Part shown: positions 25,413 to 39,467 of the stretch, piece by piece
Layout: each line of letters opens with the position of its first letter
Position numbering within the stretch: the stretch's first letter is position 1
From: Methylococcaceae bacterium
GTDB lineage: Bacteria > Pseudomonadota > Gammaproteobacteria > Methylococcales > Methylomonadaceae
DNA length: 64,000 bases
Direction of reading: 5' to 3'
Assembly: GCA_947505105.1 (NCBI GenBank)
Contig: CANNKG010000004.1
Coordinates: forward strand, 1-64,000
The notes under the pieces: generated by a model
The model's input: only the letters and a program-made list of their open reading frames with translations
Database searches by the model: none
Told to the model about the DNA's origin: nothing
Translations under genes and position numbers: made by a program

Positions 25413-26912
25413 ATGAAAATTAAACGTTTTTTTGCAGCAGATATTCGTCAAGCCATGAAAATGGTCAGAGATGAGTTAGGTTCAGATGCTGTTATCATGT
25501 CAAACAAGTCGGTAGATGGCGGGGTTGAAATTATTGCTGCCCGTGATTTCGACGAACAAGTGCTGGAAAAGAAAATTCCGGCTGAAACGCATGCACCACT
25601 TAATAAAGGGCCGACTAAAACAATGCCGGATCTGCCTGATTATTCTGCTGAAAAAGAGCGTTTACATATCGTTCAAAGTCCTAGAAAACGTGACGCCAAT
25701 AATCAGACACCACCACGTGCGGCGCGACGGGAAGTTGACCAATATTTAGGATATGCCGAAAAAATGCCCTTAAAACGCATGGATAGCGCCGAAAGTGAAT
25801 ACGCTCCCAAAGCTACTAAACCGCTCAATGACAAATTGAATCAAATTGCTTCCACAGATTCTAATTTTTATGCTGACAGTGTTCGGCCGATGCCTCCTAA
25901 ACGGGAAGTAAAACCTGAAGTTAGAACGGTAAATTTTAAAGCAACTCCTGTGAAAAATTCGCCAGAAAAAACTGATTTTGAGTCTGAACGACTGCTCGAT
26001 CAAATGCGTAAGGAATTTAGACAATTAAAATTGTCCATGGAAATGCGGCTTTCTGAAGTCGGTTTTGCTCAAGTTGCCTCTACCAATCCAGTTCGTCTTG
26101 ATTTATTAAGACGTTTTGCCGGTATGGGTATTTCCAAAAAATTAAGTCTAAAATTGGCAAATCGTTTGGGAACCCACGCTAATAGTGATTATGCCTTTGA
26201 AAAAGCTCAGGAAATGATGACCAAGGTGATGCCGATTGCTGATGACAATATTCTTGAATACGGTGGCGTGATCGCTTTAGTTGGCCCCACTGGCGTCGGT
26301 AAAACGACCACTATTGCAAAATTGGCCGCAAAATTTATTTTGAAACACGGATCAAGGCAGGTCGCCTTAATTACCACTGATAATTATCGTATTGCTGCCC
26401 ATGAACAGTTGAATACGTATGGCAGAATTCTGGATGTGCCGGTCAGAAGTGCAGCCAATGCTGACGAATTAAGAAGTTTAATTAACGGTTTTGGTGATAA
26501 AAAACTAATTCTGATTGATACCGCCGGCATGGGGCCACGGGATATGCGCTTAGTTGAACAGCTTAGAACCCTGCAAAAAAATGATGTGCCCATTCGGACC
26601 TACTTAGTCATTTCTGCGACTACCCAATATAAAGGCATGCAGGAAATTATGCGGGCATTTCAAATAGCTGGGCCTGCTTCGTGTATTCTGACCAAAATGG
26701 ATGAAGCTTCTTCAATCGGTGGGGCAATTTCGGCACTGATTGAACAACAATTACCGGTATCGTTTGTGACTGATGGTCAGCAAGTGCCTGAAGATATTCA
26801 TGTTCCACGCGCTCAAGGATTAATAAATCAATGTGTCGCCGATATTGATCAAGAAAATGACTATACTGATAGCGTAAATTACGAAGAATGGGTGGCTGAA
26901 GGTTATGCTTAA
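25413..26912 (+). CDS. flhF: flagellar placement GTPase FlhF
   Basis: A 499-residue SRP-type GTPase that puts the flagellum at the pole. N-terminal MKIKRFFAADIRQAMKMVRDELGSDAVIMSNK is the family signature. A long variable basic linker spans about 70-190, and the NG domain follows with P-loop GPTGVGKTTTIAKLAAKF near 290, DNYRIAAHEQLNTYG near 324 and LIDTAGMGPRD near 368. The linker is longer than in many relatives, making the whole protein rather long. The stop overlaps the flhG start by 8 bases. Confidence 0.96.
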   Translation: MKIKRFFAADIRQAMKMVRDELGSDAVIMSNKSVDGGVEIIAARDFDEQVLEKKIPAETHAPLNKGPTKTMPDLPDYSAEKERLHIVQSPRKRDANNQTPPRAARREVDQYLGYAEKMPLKRMDSAESEYAPKATKPLNDKLNQIASTDSNFYADSVRPMPPKREVKPEVRTVNFKATPVKNSPEKTDFESERLLDQMRKEFRQLKLSMEMRLSEVGFAQVASTNPVRLDLLRRFAGMGISKKLSLKLANRLGTHANSDYAFEKAQEMMTKVMPIADDNILEYGGVIALVGPTGVGKTTTIAKLAAKFILKHGSRQVALITTDNYRIAAHEQLNTYGRILDVPVRSAANADELRSLINGFGDKKLILIDTAGMGPRDMRLVEQLRTLQKNDVPIRTYLVISATTQYKGMQEIMRAFQIAGPASCILTKMDEASSIGGAISALIEQQLPVSFVTDGQQVPEDIHVPRAQGLINQCVADIDQENDYTDSVNYEEWVAEGYA

Positions 26913-27777
26913 ACCATTCGATCAAGCCTCTGGACTACGGAAAATGAGACAAATGAAACCAGTGCGAGTTATGGCGATTACCAGCGGGAAAGGTGGCGTC
27001 GGCAAAACCAATTTATCTACCAATATCGGTATTGCGCTATCTGAAATCGGTAGGCGAGTCGTGTTGCTGGATGCCGATATGGGTCTGGCGAATGTCGATA
27101 TTCTGTTAGGCATGTATCCTGAATTCAATCTTTCCCATGTGTTGAAAGGTCAAAAGAGCTTGAATGAAGTGATGCTTGAGGGGCCTTCCGGACTTAAAAT
27201 TATCCCGGGTGCTTCTGGTTTACAGGCAATGTCCGATTTATCATCAGTCGAACAAGCGGCGATCATTCGCGCATTTAGCGACATTGACCGCGATACCGAT
27301 GTCTTGATTGTAGACACGGCAGCCGGCATCTCATCAAGCGTGGTCAATTTTGCAAGGGCATGCCAGGAAGTGATCGTCGTAGTTTGTGATGAGCCGACCT
27401 CGTTAACCGATGCCTATGCCTTTATAAAATTATTGAATCGCGACTATGGAATAAGTAGTTTTAATATCGTTGCGAATATGGTGCAATCTCCGCAGCAGGG
27501 GCAAGGTTTATTTGTCAAGCTGACCAAGGTGACTGATCGATATTTGGATGTTGCGCTAACTTATTTGGGCGGCGTTCCGTTTGATGAATACTTACGTAAA
27601 TCCGTACAAAAACAAACGCCGGTGATAAAAGCTTTTCCTCAATGTAAATCGGCATTAGCGATCAAAAGTATAGCGCGGGTAGTGGATGCCAGACCTATTA
27701 AAACTCAAGTGGGCGGCTATCTGGAGTTTTTTGTTGAGCGGATGATTCAATATGGCGCTCAAGAGGATGCTGCATGA
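26905..27777 (+). CDS. flhG: flagellar number regulator FlhG (FleN), MinD-type ATPase
   Basis: A 290-residue ParA/MinD ATPase that limits flagellar number and works against FlhF. Deviant Walker A SGKGGVGKTNLSTN near 28-41, LLDADMGLANVDILLG near 54-69 and LIVDTAAGISSSVVNF near 132-147. The 13-residue N-terminal extension before the first strand (with QASGLRKM) fits the FlhF-activating DQAxxLR-type motif of FlhG proteins. It overlaps flhF by 8 bases and fliA by 4 bases (ATGA), so coupled translation is likely. Confidence 0.95.
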   Translation: MLKPFDQASGLRKMRQMKPVRVMAITSGKGGVGKTNLSTNIGIALSEIGRRVVLLDADMGLANVDILLGMYPEFNLSHVLKGQKSLNEVMLEGPSGLKIIPGASGLQAMSDLSSVEQAAIIRAFSDIDRDTDVLIVDTAAGISSSVVNFARACQEVIVVVCDEPTSLTDAYAFIKLLNRDYGISSFNIVANMVQSPQQGQGLFVKLTKVTDRYLDVALTYLGGVPFDEYLRKSVQKQTPVIKAFPQCKSALAIKSIARVVDARPIKTQVGGYLEFFVERMIQYGAQEDAA

Positions 27778-28493
27778 GTGGAATTGCCGCCTATACTTCA
27801 ATCCAGGCGGGTAGTACCGATGAGCAGGTCATTCTTTATGTGCCGCTTGTGAAACGCATTGCTTATCATTTGTTGAGTCGATTACCGGATTCGATTTTAC
27901 TGGACGACTTAATTCAGGCTGGCATGTTGGGATTGCTTGAGGCAATCAAAAATTACGATGCAGCTCAGGGCGCGAGTTTCGAGACTTATGCGGGTATTCG
28001 AATTCGTGGTTCAATGCTTGATGAAGTAAGACGCTCGGATTGGACGCCTCGGTCAGTACACAAAAAAGCGCGCGAGGTTGCCGGTGCCATAAGAACGATT
28101 GAAAGCCAAACCGGACGTGATGCTAGATCTTCTGAAATAGCTGAATGTCTGGGTATCAACATGGACGAGTACGCGCATATTTTGCAAGATTCGCTCTGCT
28201 GTAGGACCTTTAGTGTTGAAGAGCTTGCGCAAGATGGTGATTCGTATGAATTAATGCCTGATTGTGAGGGGCCGGCAGAAGAATTGTTACAGCAGGGTTT
28301 TCAAAACGCGCTGGCTGACGCGATTAGAAGTTTACCTGAACGTGAACGATTGGTTGTATCATTGTATTATGATGACGAACTTAACTTGCGGGAAATCGGT
28401 GAAGTACTCAATATAAGTGAGTCGCGTGTCAGTCAAATCAATAGTCAAGCAATGCTTCGTTTACGTGCTCGGCTTGCCGATTGGTTAGAATAA
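27774..28493 (+). CDS. fliA: RNA polymerase sigma-28 factor FliA
   Basis: A 239-residue sigma factor for late flagellar, motor and chemotaxis genes. Region 2 (LDDLIQAGMLGLLEAIKNYDAAQGASFETYAGIRIRGSMLDEVR, about 42-85), region 3, and region 4 with the HTH LNLREIGEVLNISESRVSQINSQAMLRLR near 204-232. The ATGA overlap with flhG couples it to the polar placement genes. A well-matched target promoter for it is visible at 58105-58130. Confidence 0.97.
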   Translation: MSGIAAYTSIQAGSTDEQVILYVPLVKRIAYHLLSRLPDSILLDDLIQAGMLGLLEAIKNYDAAQGASFETYAGIRIRGSMLDEVRRSDWTPRSVHKKAREVAGAIRTIESQTGRDARSSEIAECLGINMDEYAHILQDSLCCRTFSVEELAQDGDSYELMPDCEGPAEELLQQGFQNALADAIRSLPERERLVVSLYYDDELNLREIGEVLNISESRVSQINSQAMLRLRARLADWLE

Positions 28494-34828: not shown

Positions 34829-35635
34829 ATGAAAATATGGGCTGTTTCAAATCAAAAAGGCGGCGTCGGCAAAACGACCACCGTGATCGCTCTGGGAGGA
34901 TTATTATCCTCCTGGGGATTCAGAACATTATTGATTGATCTTGACCCCCATGGCGCATTAACTAGTTATTTCAAGATGAATCCCGATGAAATTGAGGGTA
35001 GTGTTTATCATCTGTTTCACGATGCCAGTGTTAAAAAATCACCGGTAACGCCTGAACCCTATATCGTGCGGACTGAATTTGCGGGCCTGTCGATCTTGCC
35101 GGCATCAACGGCAATGGCGACCCTGGATCGACAAGTCGCTTCGATGGTAGGGATGGGATTGGTCATCGCCAATGCGCTAAAAAAAGTCTCGGATCAATAT
35201 GACTATGTGATTATCGATAGTCCGCCCATGTTGGGTGTTCTGATGATTAATGCGTTGGCTGCGTGCGAACGCTTGATTATGCCAGTTATTGCCGAATTTC
35301 TGGCCTTGAAAGGCCTGGAGCGGATGTACAAAACCTTAAAGATGGTTTTTAACTCACGCAAAATCGCACCGCGCTATACCATTGTGCCCACGATGTTTGA
35401 TAAACGCACTATCGAAGCAAGAGAGAGTCTGCAGCATTTGCATACCCACTATTCTGAATCTTTGTGGCCTTCAGTCATTCCGATTGATACCAAATATCGG
35501 GATGCAAGTCGTTTGGGAATTCCTGGCCCCTTGTATGTTCCTACTAGCAAAGCATCCGAAGCTTACGCCGATTTGTTGGAATTCCTGTTACAGGATATCC
35601 AGACGCCGTCTCATAAACTCGGGATGTCGGTGTGA
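34829..35635 (+). CDS. parC: ParA-family ATPase ParC for chemotaxis array placement
   Basis: A 268-residue ParA-like ATPase: Walker A NQKGGVGKTTTVIALG near 8-23, DLDPHGALTSYF near 38-49 and VIIDSPPMLGVLMINAL near 126-142. In Vibrio and Pseudomonas the gene at this position (between motD and the CheW-like parP) localises chemotaxis arrays to the cell pole, which supports the name here. It overlaps parP by 4 bases (GTGA). Confidence 0.9.
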   Translation: MKIWAVSNQKGGVGKTTTVIALGGLLSSWGFRTLLIDLDPHGALTSYFKMNPDEIEGSVYHLFHDASVKKSPVTPEPYIVRTEFAGLSILPASTAMATLDRQVASMVGMGLVIANALKKVSDQYDYVIIDSPPMLGVLMINALAACERLIMPVIAEFLALKGLERMYKTLKMVFNSRKIAPRYTIVPTMFDKRTIEARESLQHLHTHYSESLWPSVIPIDTKYRDASRLGIPGPLYVPTSKASEAYADLLEFLLQDIQTPSHKLGMSV

Positions 35636-36501
35636 GTGCGATAACGCCCCCCAACGAAATTCTGGAGCAGAGTCTTGCTCTGGAATTGTATCTTAAGTTG
35701 CTCTTGACCGAAGAAACCGAAGAAATCGAAGATGAGCCTGAACCGTTACCGGAGCTTGAGTCCGAACCTGAATACAGATCTGCGTCTAAATCGACTCTCA
35801 CCGAACCGATAGTCGTTGTTCAGCCATTGATCAAGCCCTCAATAAGCCCCAAACCTCTTGAACTTCCGGTTCCATCGACGCTTACGACGTTGGCAGTCGA
35901 AAAAAAACCATCGATGTCGTTGTCAACTCTGGATCTAACGCTTACGACAATCATTGAGGCACCGCCAGAAGAAATAATAACGCCTGTACCGATCGTAAAA
36001 CCGATTCCTGTCAAGGTGCCGGAAGTTAAACCGATTAGGCCTTTATCAATCATGCCGGAGTGGTCTCGTGGAGAATTTCAAGCCTTGTTTTTTCGCGTCG
36101 AGCATTTGATTTTGGCAACGCCTTTAACAGAATTATCCAGAACCATACTTTTTAATCGTAAACCGACTAAAATTCCTATTCAACCTTCATGGTTCTTGGG
36201 ATTATTGGAACATCAGGGAACTAAAATCGGGATTCTTGATACCGGTCAACTCATTTTTGGCAAATTACGGGGCGCTAATCGGGATTTGGAGGAGCGTCCT
36301 TTTACCAGCTTGTTGATCAGTGGTGACGGCAAATGGGGCTTGGCCTGTGATGAAGTGTTGGCGATCAGTAAAATTATTCCGGATAAGGTTCGTTGGAGAA
36401 CTTTCCGTAAAAATCGACCTTGGTTAATTGGTACCGTGATTGATGAATTAACAGCTGTGGTAGATATTACTCAGTTGTTACCAAGAAAAAAATCGAACTA
36501 A
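35632..36501 (+). CDS. parP: ParP-like coupling protein with C-terminal CheW-like domain
   Basis: A 289-residue protein: an acidic, Pro-rich low-complexity N-terminal half (about 1-135, with many LP/EPE and PIVKPIPV stretches) and a C-terminal CheW-like (AIF) domain from about 145 (WSRGEFQALFFRVEHLILATPLTELSRTI) to the end. ParP proteins link ParC to CheA and receptors. It starts with a GTG overlapping the parC stop. The disordered N-terminus is probably the ParC-binding tether. Confidence 0.88.
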   Translation: MSAITPPNEILEQSLALELYLKLLLTEETEEIEDEPEPLPELESEPEYRSASKSTLTEPIVVVQPLIKPSISPKPLELPVPSTLTTLAVEKKPSMSLSTLDLTLTTIIEAPPEEIITPVPIVKPIPVKVPEVKPIRPLSIMPEWSRGEFQALFFRVEHLILATPLTELSRTILFNRKPTKIPIQPSWFLGLLEHQGTKIGILDTGQLIFGKLRGANRDLEERPFTSLLISGDGKWGLACDEVLAISKIIPDKVRWRTFRKNRPWLIGTVIDELTAVVDITQLLPRKKSN

Positions 36502-36583: not shown

Positions 36584-37051
36584 ATGGAATCAAAACAAAA
36601 TGATCCTGTAATGCAGTGGGTAACTTTTCGGTTAGGCGACGAAAAGTATGGAATTAACGTCATGCAGGTACAGGAGGTCCTCAGAATTACCGAAATTGCA
36701 CCGGTTCCTGGCGCACCTTTTTATGTCTTAGGAATCATCAATTTGCGTGGTAATGTGGTGACGGTAATCGACACTCGCAATCGCTTTGGTTTGCCGCCTA
36801 AGGAAACCGATGATGCTTCAAGAATTGTTATTATTGAGACTGAAAATCACATTATTGGCATTATGGTAGATAGTGTTGCGGAAGTCGTTGAGTTGCGGGC
36901 TTCAGAAATTGAAACCGCGCCGAATGTCGGTAATGAAGAAACCTCGAAATACATTCAGGGCGTTACAGGTCGAGATAATGAATTGTTGATTTTAGTGGAT
37001 CTAAATAAATTTCTCAGTGATGAGGAAAAAGTCGAATTAGATATGTTTTAG
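36584..37051 (+). CDS. cheW: chemotaxis coupling protein CheW
   Basis: A 155-residue protein with one CheW domain linking receptors to CheA. Conserved pieces are YGINVMQVQEVLRITEIAPVPGAP near 23-46, GIINLRGNVVTVIDTRNRFGLP near 50-71, and MVDSVAEVV near 94. It has an 82-base upstream gap containing an imperfect hairpin (CTACTATT/AATAGTGG) of unknown meaning. Confidence 0.96.
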   Translation: MESKQNDPVMQWVTFRLGDEKYGINVMQVQEVLRITEIAPVPGAPFYVLGIINLRGNVVTVIDTRNRFGLPPKETDDASRIVIIETENHIIGIMVDSVAEVVELRASEIETAPNVGNEETSKYIQGVTGRDNELLILVDLNKFLSDEEKVELDMF

Positions 37052-37206
37052 ACTGTCGGAATATCAGCAGTCCAAGCCGGATGTTTCAGGGAAAGCAGCG
37101 CTGGTCGAATTGTCTTTAAATTAAGCTTATTTAGAGATAGTCTAATTGATAGTACTTTGGCATTATTATGGGTCTAAATTCTGAATAAAAATGGGGATAT
37201 TATCAA

Positions 37207-37386
37207 ATGGTTAATGTAGAGCCGATATTCCCGTTATTTGCGATAAATAAAGTGCTTAAAGTCATTAAAAAGCAGAAGTACCCACTTTCGAATCGACCGT
37301 TATCACAGCAATCAAAAAAATCACCACCAGAGACGCCAGAGTCTGAAAATGATCAACAAATTCAGCATATTGATGAAATTGTATAA
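37207..37386 (+). CDS. small coupled ORF, 59 residues, unknown function
   Basis: An ORF too short for usual gene lists. It begins with ATG at 37207 after GGGGAT (spacing about 8) and ends with TAA whose last base starts the ATG of the DUF2802 gene (TAATG), a strong coupling signal. Product: hydrophobic start with PIFPLFAINKVLKVIKK, then a basic Lys/Gln/Ser/Pro-rich middle and an acidic end (QHIDEIV). It has no recognised domain. Its place in the chemotaxis operon and its coupled stop suggest it is expressed and may act with the DUF2802 protein. Confidence 0.6.
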   Translation: MVNVEPIFPLFAINKVLKVIKKQKYPLSNRPLSQQSKKSPPETPESENDQQIQHIDEIV

Positions 37387-37778
37387 TGGTTGATATTTTT
37401 TTAGGCATATACAGCGTACTCTTGCTTCTTGTAGTGATTGTTCTGATTTGGCTGGTTTACGATCGATTCAAGCTCAAAAAGGAGATTGACGCGCTGACTG
37501 ATTCAGTGAATCGGAATAATAGGGATATTTCAGGGCTTTGCTCGGCTGCGATCACGATAGACACTCGGATGACCGAAGGTGCTGATCAATTAAACGCCGC
37601 TCTTCAAAAAATCAATGATCTACAGCGCACCGAATCAACGGCTCAACCTTATTATAGTGTCATCCAAAAAATACGCGCGGGTGCGACTGTTGCTGATCTG
37701 ATGCAAAACTCAGGATTAAGTCGAGATGAGGCGGTGTTATTAATCCGTTTGCATGGCAACCCGCAGTCAAAAAAATAA
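37386..37778 (+). CDS. DUF2802 family membrane-anchored protein
   Basis: A 130-residue protein with an N-terminal transmembrane helix (about 3-23, FLGIYSVLLLLVVIVLIWLVY), a coiled coil (about 28-85), and a C-terminal helix-turn-helix-like segment (GATVADLMQNSGLSRDEAVLLIRLHG, about 97-122). The family commonly closes polar flagellar/chemotaxis operons (as after cheW in Pseudomonas), but its role is unknown. It overlaps the 59-codon ORF by one base. Confidence 0.85.
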   Translation: MVDIFLGIYSVLLLLVVIVLIWLVYDRFKLKKEIDALTDSVNRNNRDISGLCSAAITIDTRMTEGADQLNAALQKINDLQRTESTAQPYYSVIQKIRAGATVADLMQNSGLSRDEAVLLIRLHGNPQSKK

Positions 37779-39098: not shown

Positions 39099-39467
39099 AT
39101 GGGTGAATCACAAAAAATTATTGCGGCGGTGATCGGGGTATTTGTCGTTGGATTTTTATTAGTTGGGATTAGCAAAGAACAAGAGTCTGAAGTCAATCCC
39201 GAGAAATCAAAACTGATTACTTACGCCTCAATGCAAACTATGGCTAACCAAAAATGTCCTCCATTAATTGAAGAGCATACAGGTTCTAAAGTGTTCTTTC
39301 CAACAACTGTCGATAGCGACAAAGATACGTTTGTCACTATGAATTGGAAAGGCGAAAACGACGATAAATTTAAAACCGCCTCTTGCACGTTAAGATTGCA
39401 AACTAGCGGTATCGGTGTTTCAAAATTAGTGGTCGATGATAAAGTCATTATTGACAGAGAAAAATAA
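39099..39467 (+). CDS. small membrane-anchored protein of unknown function
   Basis: A 122-residue protein with an N-terminal transmembrane helix or uncleaved signal (IIAAVIGVFVVGFLLVGI, about 6-23) and a soluble domain, probably periplasmic. It holds two cysteines (QKCPPL near 52 and ASCTLRL near 91) that could form a disulfide. A GGGGAAATGCA sequence stands before the ATG. I do not recognise the family. The DUF3530-like gene follows on the same strand. Confidence 0.7.
   Translation: MGESQKIIAAVIGVFVVGFLLVGISKEQESEVNPEKSKLITYASMQTMANQKCPPLIEEHTGSKVFFPTTVDSDKDTFVTMNWKGENDDKFKTASCTLRLQTSGIGVSKLVVDDKVIIDREK

Follow-up and report, generated by a model that had tools for sequence, protein, structure and literature searches.

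A conserved small gene directly upstream of fipA in Gammaproteobacteria encodes a candidate partner for polar flagellum placement

The window, a 64,000-nucleotide stretch of contig CANNKG010000004.1 from a Methylococcaceae bacterium (assembly GCA_947505105.1), carries a run of flagellar and chemotaxis genes in the order flhB, flhA, flhF, flhG, fliA, cheY, cheZ, cheA, cheB, a motA-type gene, a motB-type gene, a ParA-type ATPase gene, a ParP-like gene, cheW, a small open-reading frame (ORF) and a gene for a DUF2802 protein, with the small ORF near the end of the run (Table 1). Sequence and gene order gave the names of cheA and cheY; the ParA-like product occupies the position of ParC, and its neighbour is labelled ParP-like. 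The host is probably a methane oxidiser, since its genome contains a strong pmoA/amoA-type gene (PF02461, E 1.5e-130). The DUF2802 gene encodes a protein with hydrophobic residues at 4-25 and a single DUF2802 domain (PF10975, 55 bits against a cut-off of 33.5); judged by these features, it is a homologue of FipA and may bind FlhF. FipA was described in 2024 as an FlhF-interacting polar flagellum factor (PMC11620751, available text), and the connection between DUF2802 and FipA had been left unmade in the initial annotation of this locus. Some FipA proteins (alignment A2) show weak similarity to DUF6115 and to the homeodomain-like HTH_23; as these matches are weak only, FipA was not classed as a DUF6115 relative and the similarity was kept as a lead. 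Elsewhere in the window, an ORF at 39099-39467, 5′ of a DUF3530 gene, encodes 122 aa that begin with a hydrophobic stretch and match no Pfam family.

The small ORF begins with an ATG at 37207 and runs for 59 codons to a TAA at 37384-37386, the last A of which is also the A of the fipA ATG. This start and the TAATG junction (37384-37388) are as the initial annotation had described them, and the ribosome-binding site that it reported does exist, as GGGGA at a spacing of 9 nt, although it is weak. The Lys/Gln/Pro-rich middle and acidic tail of the protein likewise held up, while the start, described there as hydrophobic, is only mildly so (V-E-P-I-F-P). The gap between cheW and the small ORF is 155 nt long in the window (37052-37206), compared to a median of 30 nt over 71 loci. 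A separate promoter in this gap was discarded, as the + strand showed no promoter-like site; the two sigma-70-like sites detected are both on the reverse strand (shuffle mean 4.7), and no exact sigma-28-type pattern was found in the window.

Table 1. Coordinates of the small gene, its sequence elements and its operon neighbours in the window
Feature	Position	Strand	Evidence
flhF (SRP-type GTPase)	25413..26912	+	PF00448 E 1.2e-40, position after flhA
flhG (MinD/ParA-type ATPase)	26905..27777	+	gene order and domain search
fliA (sigma-28 type)	27774..28493	+	Sigma70_r2, r3, r4
ParA-like ATPase (ParC position)	34829..35635	+	PF13614 E 5.1e-43
ParP-like protein, C-terminal CheW domain	35632..36501	+	Pfam CheW E 1.7e-10
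cheW	36584..37051	+	Pfam CheW E 1.7e-41
Weak ribosome-binding-like GGGGA, 9 nt 5′ of the small-ORF ATG	37193..37197	+	sequence
Small protein gene, 59 aa	37207..37386	+	homologues upstream of fipA in relatives; profile matches (window row itself in the profiles)
N-terminal element V-E-P-I-F-P (family pattern [ILV].P..P)	37216..37233	+	pattern in 83/113 members
C-terminal element H-I-D-E-I-V, directly 5′ of the stop	37366..37383	+	conserved family C-terminus
TAATG, small-ORF stop/fipA start overlap of 1 base	37384..37388	+	sequence
fipA homologue, 130 aa, N-terminal hydrophobic stretch and DUF2802	37386..37778	+	PF10975 E 9.5e-15

A tblastn search of the window's genome and 60 relatives returned matches just 5′ of DUF2802 in a number of them. 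The DNA before DUF2802 was inspected at 184 fipA loci, 37 from the relatives (38 have DUF2802; G003 was left out, its locus being cut by the contig start) and 147 from the class set (165 DUF2802 genomes, of which 3 are shared with the relatives and 15 were left out). Family members were defined as ORFs of ~ 45-90 codons ending at or shortly 5′ of the fipA start, and such relatives of the small ORF were present directly 5′ of fipA at 113 of the 184 loci (27/37 in the relatives, 86/147 in the other class members). Ninety-two of these were identified by the C-terminal pattern, 20 by E < 0.01 with a profile built from those 92, and one (L242) by eye despite an E of 8.5; L170, with an E of 0.41 and likeness at the N-terminus alone, was scored as lacking the gene. 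As a control, the 184 loci were also read on the reverse strand, where the best E among 4151 ORFs was 0.035, and all 112 forward matches below 0.01 were counted ORFs. The small ORF occurs in 58 of the 86 family codes, 44 solely with it and 14 mixed, leaving 28 solely without.

The small gene is an optional companion of fipA, as it is missing from 71 of the 184 loci, including that of G002 in the window's own genus. Among the 25 loci with named hosts, the 17 with the ORF are all Gammaproteobacteria, Chromatiaceae or Chromatiales, and the eight without it comprise five from Deefgea, Chitinilyticum and Andreprevotia and three others (L257, L259, L268). Mapped on a quick tree of FipA, itself a short protein, presence and absence required 33 changes. 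Where fipA follows cheW without the ORF, 39 of 43 measured loci have at most 90 nt between the two genes and therefore no room for it. Within genus code g110, one genome (G131, L092) has the ORF and another (G260, L099) does not, with cheW and fipA 60 nt apart, a possible case of recent loss or gain. In Vibrio parahaemolyticus, cheW and fipA bear the consecutive numbers vp2225 and vp2224 in the available text of PMC11620751, so that no gene is numbered between them, and the model species of FipA may on this account lack the small gene. When 200 genomes of the phylum were searched with profile A4, G460 (E 2.2e-4) alone among the matches opened resembled the arrangement outside the class. At this locus (L295, 940-1206), a small ORF, proline-rich and acidic with GLDCYA as its end, comes after fliA, and the next gene has a hydrophobic start; in that gene Pfam detected no DUF2802 and only a weak DUF6115 match. 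The arrangement may thus reach beyond Gammaproteobacteria.

Linkage to fipA was also seen in searches of whole genomes. Profile A4 gave 78 matches at E <= 1e-4 in 369 genomes of the class, with E-values that are not independent, as many of these 78 genomes supplied rows of the profile, and 75 of the 78 lie upstream of fipA, sharing contig and strand with the DUF2802 match and standing 159-408 nt 5′ of it. Two further matches (G245, G371) are cut by contig ends, and the G245 contig still shows the beginning of fipA. The sole orphan, G122, is not among the DUF2802 genomes; its ORF follows an flhG-like gene and fliA (L291, ORF end 1423, reverse complement). An earlier profile built from the relatives only (A1) had given 42 matches at E <= 0.001, including two rows of the profile itself; by their coordinates, 41 stood before a DUF2802 match, G245 being the exception. 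Weaker matches to A1 and A4 were scattered over other places in a chance-like manner. G322, another genome outside the DUF2802 set, has the two ends of one family member in different frames (L292, ~ 956-1212, reverse complement), which looks like a decayed copy.

The pattern of substitution was that of a coding sequence. In all 37 congeneric pairs (all pairs from 21 genera with two or more members, those within a trio sharing members and thus not independent), pN was lower than pS, and dN/dS ranged from 0.09 to 0.72 in the 27 pairs that yielded a value. In 11 pairs aligned without gaps from the stop, with 634 codons in total, 75, 59 and 169 differences fell on codon positions 1, 2 and 3; a twelfth pair had been dropped for an identity under 0.6. 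The window ORF and its congener G001 gave a dN/dS of 0.27 at 32% identity, a value near saturation. On this comparative evidence, the small ORF is a real protein-coding gene. The initial annotation had proposed exactly this, a small gene coupled to the DUF2802 gene, with conservation in the gap between cheW and DUF2802 at a dN/dS below 1 as its check and a frame not conserved among close relatives as grounds for rejection; the proposal is strongly supported by the conservation, dN/dS values and constant position described here, and the frame proved to be conserved in close relatives, with the gene itself absent from the congener G002.

The family has a median length of 57 aa (range 46-90) and is most conserved at its C-terminus, where the last six residues of the 113 members contain H in 83, I/V in 104, D in 111, E/D in 109, Y/F in 90 and A/V in 110, and where Asp at -4 and Ala/Val/Ile at -1 occur together in 110. 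This motif, H-I/V-D-E-Y/F-A/V-stop, is nearly invariant and is written in mixed synonymous codons. At the N-terminus, [ILV].P..P was found in 83 of 113 members (shuffle mean 13.6, maximum 24) and P.WP.[RK] in 30 (shuffle mean 0.3). Because the rule for picking start codons gave preference to an ATG, a Shine-Dalgarno match and the N-terminal pattern itself, these counts lean towards [ILV].P..P; the stops are unaffected. The linker between the two ends is variable and charged: the mean net charge is +3.3 over the stretch that starts at residue 11 and extends slightly beyond the middle, and -3.7 over the remainder of the protein. The window ORF has the length and position of the family, Asp at -4 with Ala/Val/Ile at -1, [ILV].P..P and the amino-acid selection; it is a diverged copy that ends in HIDEIV and lacks PxWP. 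AlphaFold with an 18-row alignment returned a pLDDT of 61, a pTM of 0.13 and no secondary structure, the ends scoring slightly better than the middle. The protein is thus likely, rather than proven, to be intrinsically disordered, given the shallow alignment, and as no folded domain was predicted, that reading was discarded.

No known family accounts for the small protein. Pfam-A gave no family over its curated cut-off for the window protein (best E 0.052 among 27 members, the window's and those of 26 relatives), NCBIfam gave none for the window protein and two relatives, and PDB sequences yielded nothing better than E 3.5, in agreement with the initial impression of a protein unlike any domain. 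The ORF was not found as a topic in the open-licence literature, judged by titles and abstract starts among the matches listed, and the available text of the FipA paper (PMC11620751) makes no mention of it. The family is apparently undescribed.

Comparison with known systems offers partial parallels. The small protein has the operon place, the coupled start and the polar-flagellum genomes of FipA in common; however, FipA sits in the membrane and its DUF2802 domain is folded, whereas the small protein has neither a predicted fold nor a DUF2802 match. Proline-rich PxxPx[RK] sequences are ligands of SH3-type domains, and P..P.[RK] is present in 56 of 113 family N-termini (shuffle mean 13.0) but is missing from the window copy. 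We know of no SH3 partner in the FlhF/FipA pathway. The N-terminal EIDAL motif of FliM, which binds FlhG and CheY, is likewise short and acidic, contains I-D and lies in a disordered terminus, a resemblance only, since the family motif, HIDE-Y/F-A/V, stands at the extreme C-terminus and is without Leu-Leu. An N-terminal EIDALL of the FliM type was not found in the small protein family. The available text of PMC12826062 reports that FlhG binds the N-terminus of FliM.

Taken together, we consider it about an even call that, in the FlhF-dependent placement of polar flagella, the small protein serves FipA as a widespread but optional partner and acts as a disordered adaptor. One end, either the proline-rich N-terminus or the C-terminal HIDE-Y-A/V, would bind FipA or FlhF, and the opposite end would bind a second flagellar or polar protein, by which FipA-FlhF would be held where the first basal-body ring forms; the overlap with the fipA start would let the small protein and FipA be made in step. 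Two approaches to the partner were tried and dropped. No FipA alignment column separates genomes with the ORF from those without, the strongest (50/113 vs 8/71) being weak and confounded by ancestry. Co-occurrence with FimV/HubP was uninformative because the FimV C-terminal domain, present in 306 of 369 class genomes, is too common to discriminate.

The close junction with fipA raises the alternative of a cis-acting leader, in which translation of the ORF merely starts that of fipA, through opening of the start site or re-initiation, and the peptide itself is inert. With fipA starts picked by nearness and ATG, a start lies within 60 nt at 108 of 113 loci (none at the other five), and the commonest overlaps are -1 (19 loci, the window included), -4 (15) and -14 (5). 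At the 44 junctions that overlap or abut, fipA never has a Shine-Dalgarno match of at least 4 bases, and in the window a modest hairpin is predicted to enclose the fipA start (-18.2 kcal/mol, z -1.48; 15 of 200 shuffled sequences did equally well), both as a leader would have it. However, 64 members have a gap before fipA, 29 of them with such a match, and the C-terminal residues are kept across the 113 members with all synonymous codons in use. Because these amino acids are conserved with and without overlap, and because a leader alone would need no HIDE-Y-A/V, we regard a purely cis-acting role as unlikely.

The genes that precede the ORF bear on an accessory of the chemotaxis array on the CheW/ParP/ParC side, one of the two roles suggested in the initial annotation, which spoke of a polar array or flagellar function. 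By phmmer with the window proteins, the gene 5′ of the ORF is cheW at 91 of 113 loci, motB-like at 12, fliA at four and parC-like at one, with none found at five; these counts replace those of a rougher signature search (cheW 71, motB 13, fliA 4, unassigned 25). The predominance of cheW, and the place of the window ORF at the end of a parC-parP-cheW stretch, would suit an array protein, but the ORF stays beside fipA when a motB-like gene or fliA precedes it, the orphan in G122 follows flhG-fliA, and at the 71 fipA loci without the ORF the preceding gene is still cheW in 45 (motB-like 13, fliA 5, others 3, unassigned 5). An array role thus seems to us improbable, and a role in FlhF/FipA placement is favoured over it because the ORF accompanies fipA whether the preceding gene is cheW, motB or fliA; of the initial suggestion, the flagellar part is supported by this context. 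Still less probable is a small regulator of flagellar export or of sigma-28, FlgM-like or an export substrate, whose linkage to fipA would be incidental: the protein is small, charged, probably disordered, encoded in a flagellar operon and sometimes directly 3′ of fliA, but it matches nothing in Pfam or NCBIfam and its linkage is to fipA. As for a chance ORF or spurious frame, the short length and the weak ribosome-binding site in the window would fit one, but the conserved position, open frames and codon-like substitution, which extend over 58 of the 86 family codes, together with the reverse-strand control leave it a negligible probability, and it was ruled out.

The FlhF/FipA system is known; the small protein family has no match in the libraries searched. 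A stronger claim, which we hold only tentatively and consider less probable than a FipA partnership as such, is that the FlhF-FlhG-FipA system has a widespread component not described so far, namely this family: a disordered protein whose two terminal binding motifs would tether FipA-FlhF to another protein of the pole or basal body, found in most sampled FipA lineages and absent from the species in which FipA was discovered. How FipA and HubP/FimV act on FlhF is an open question according to a 2025 review and PMC11620751, in their available text. A conserved small protein made with FipA and carrying two mutable motifs would give a direct handle on this action, and it suggests that a part retained in other lineages may be missing from the model species.
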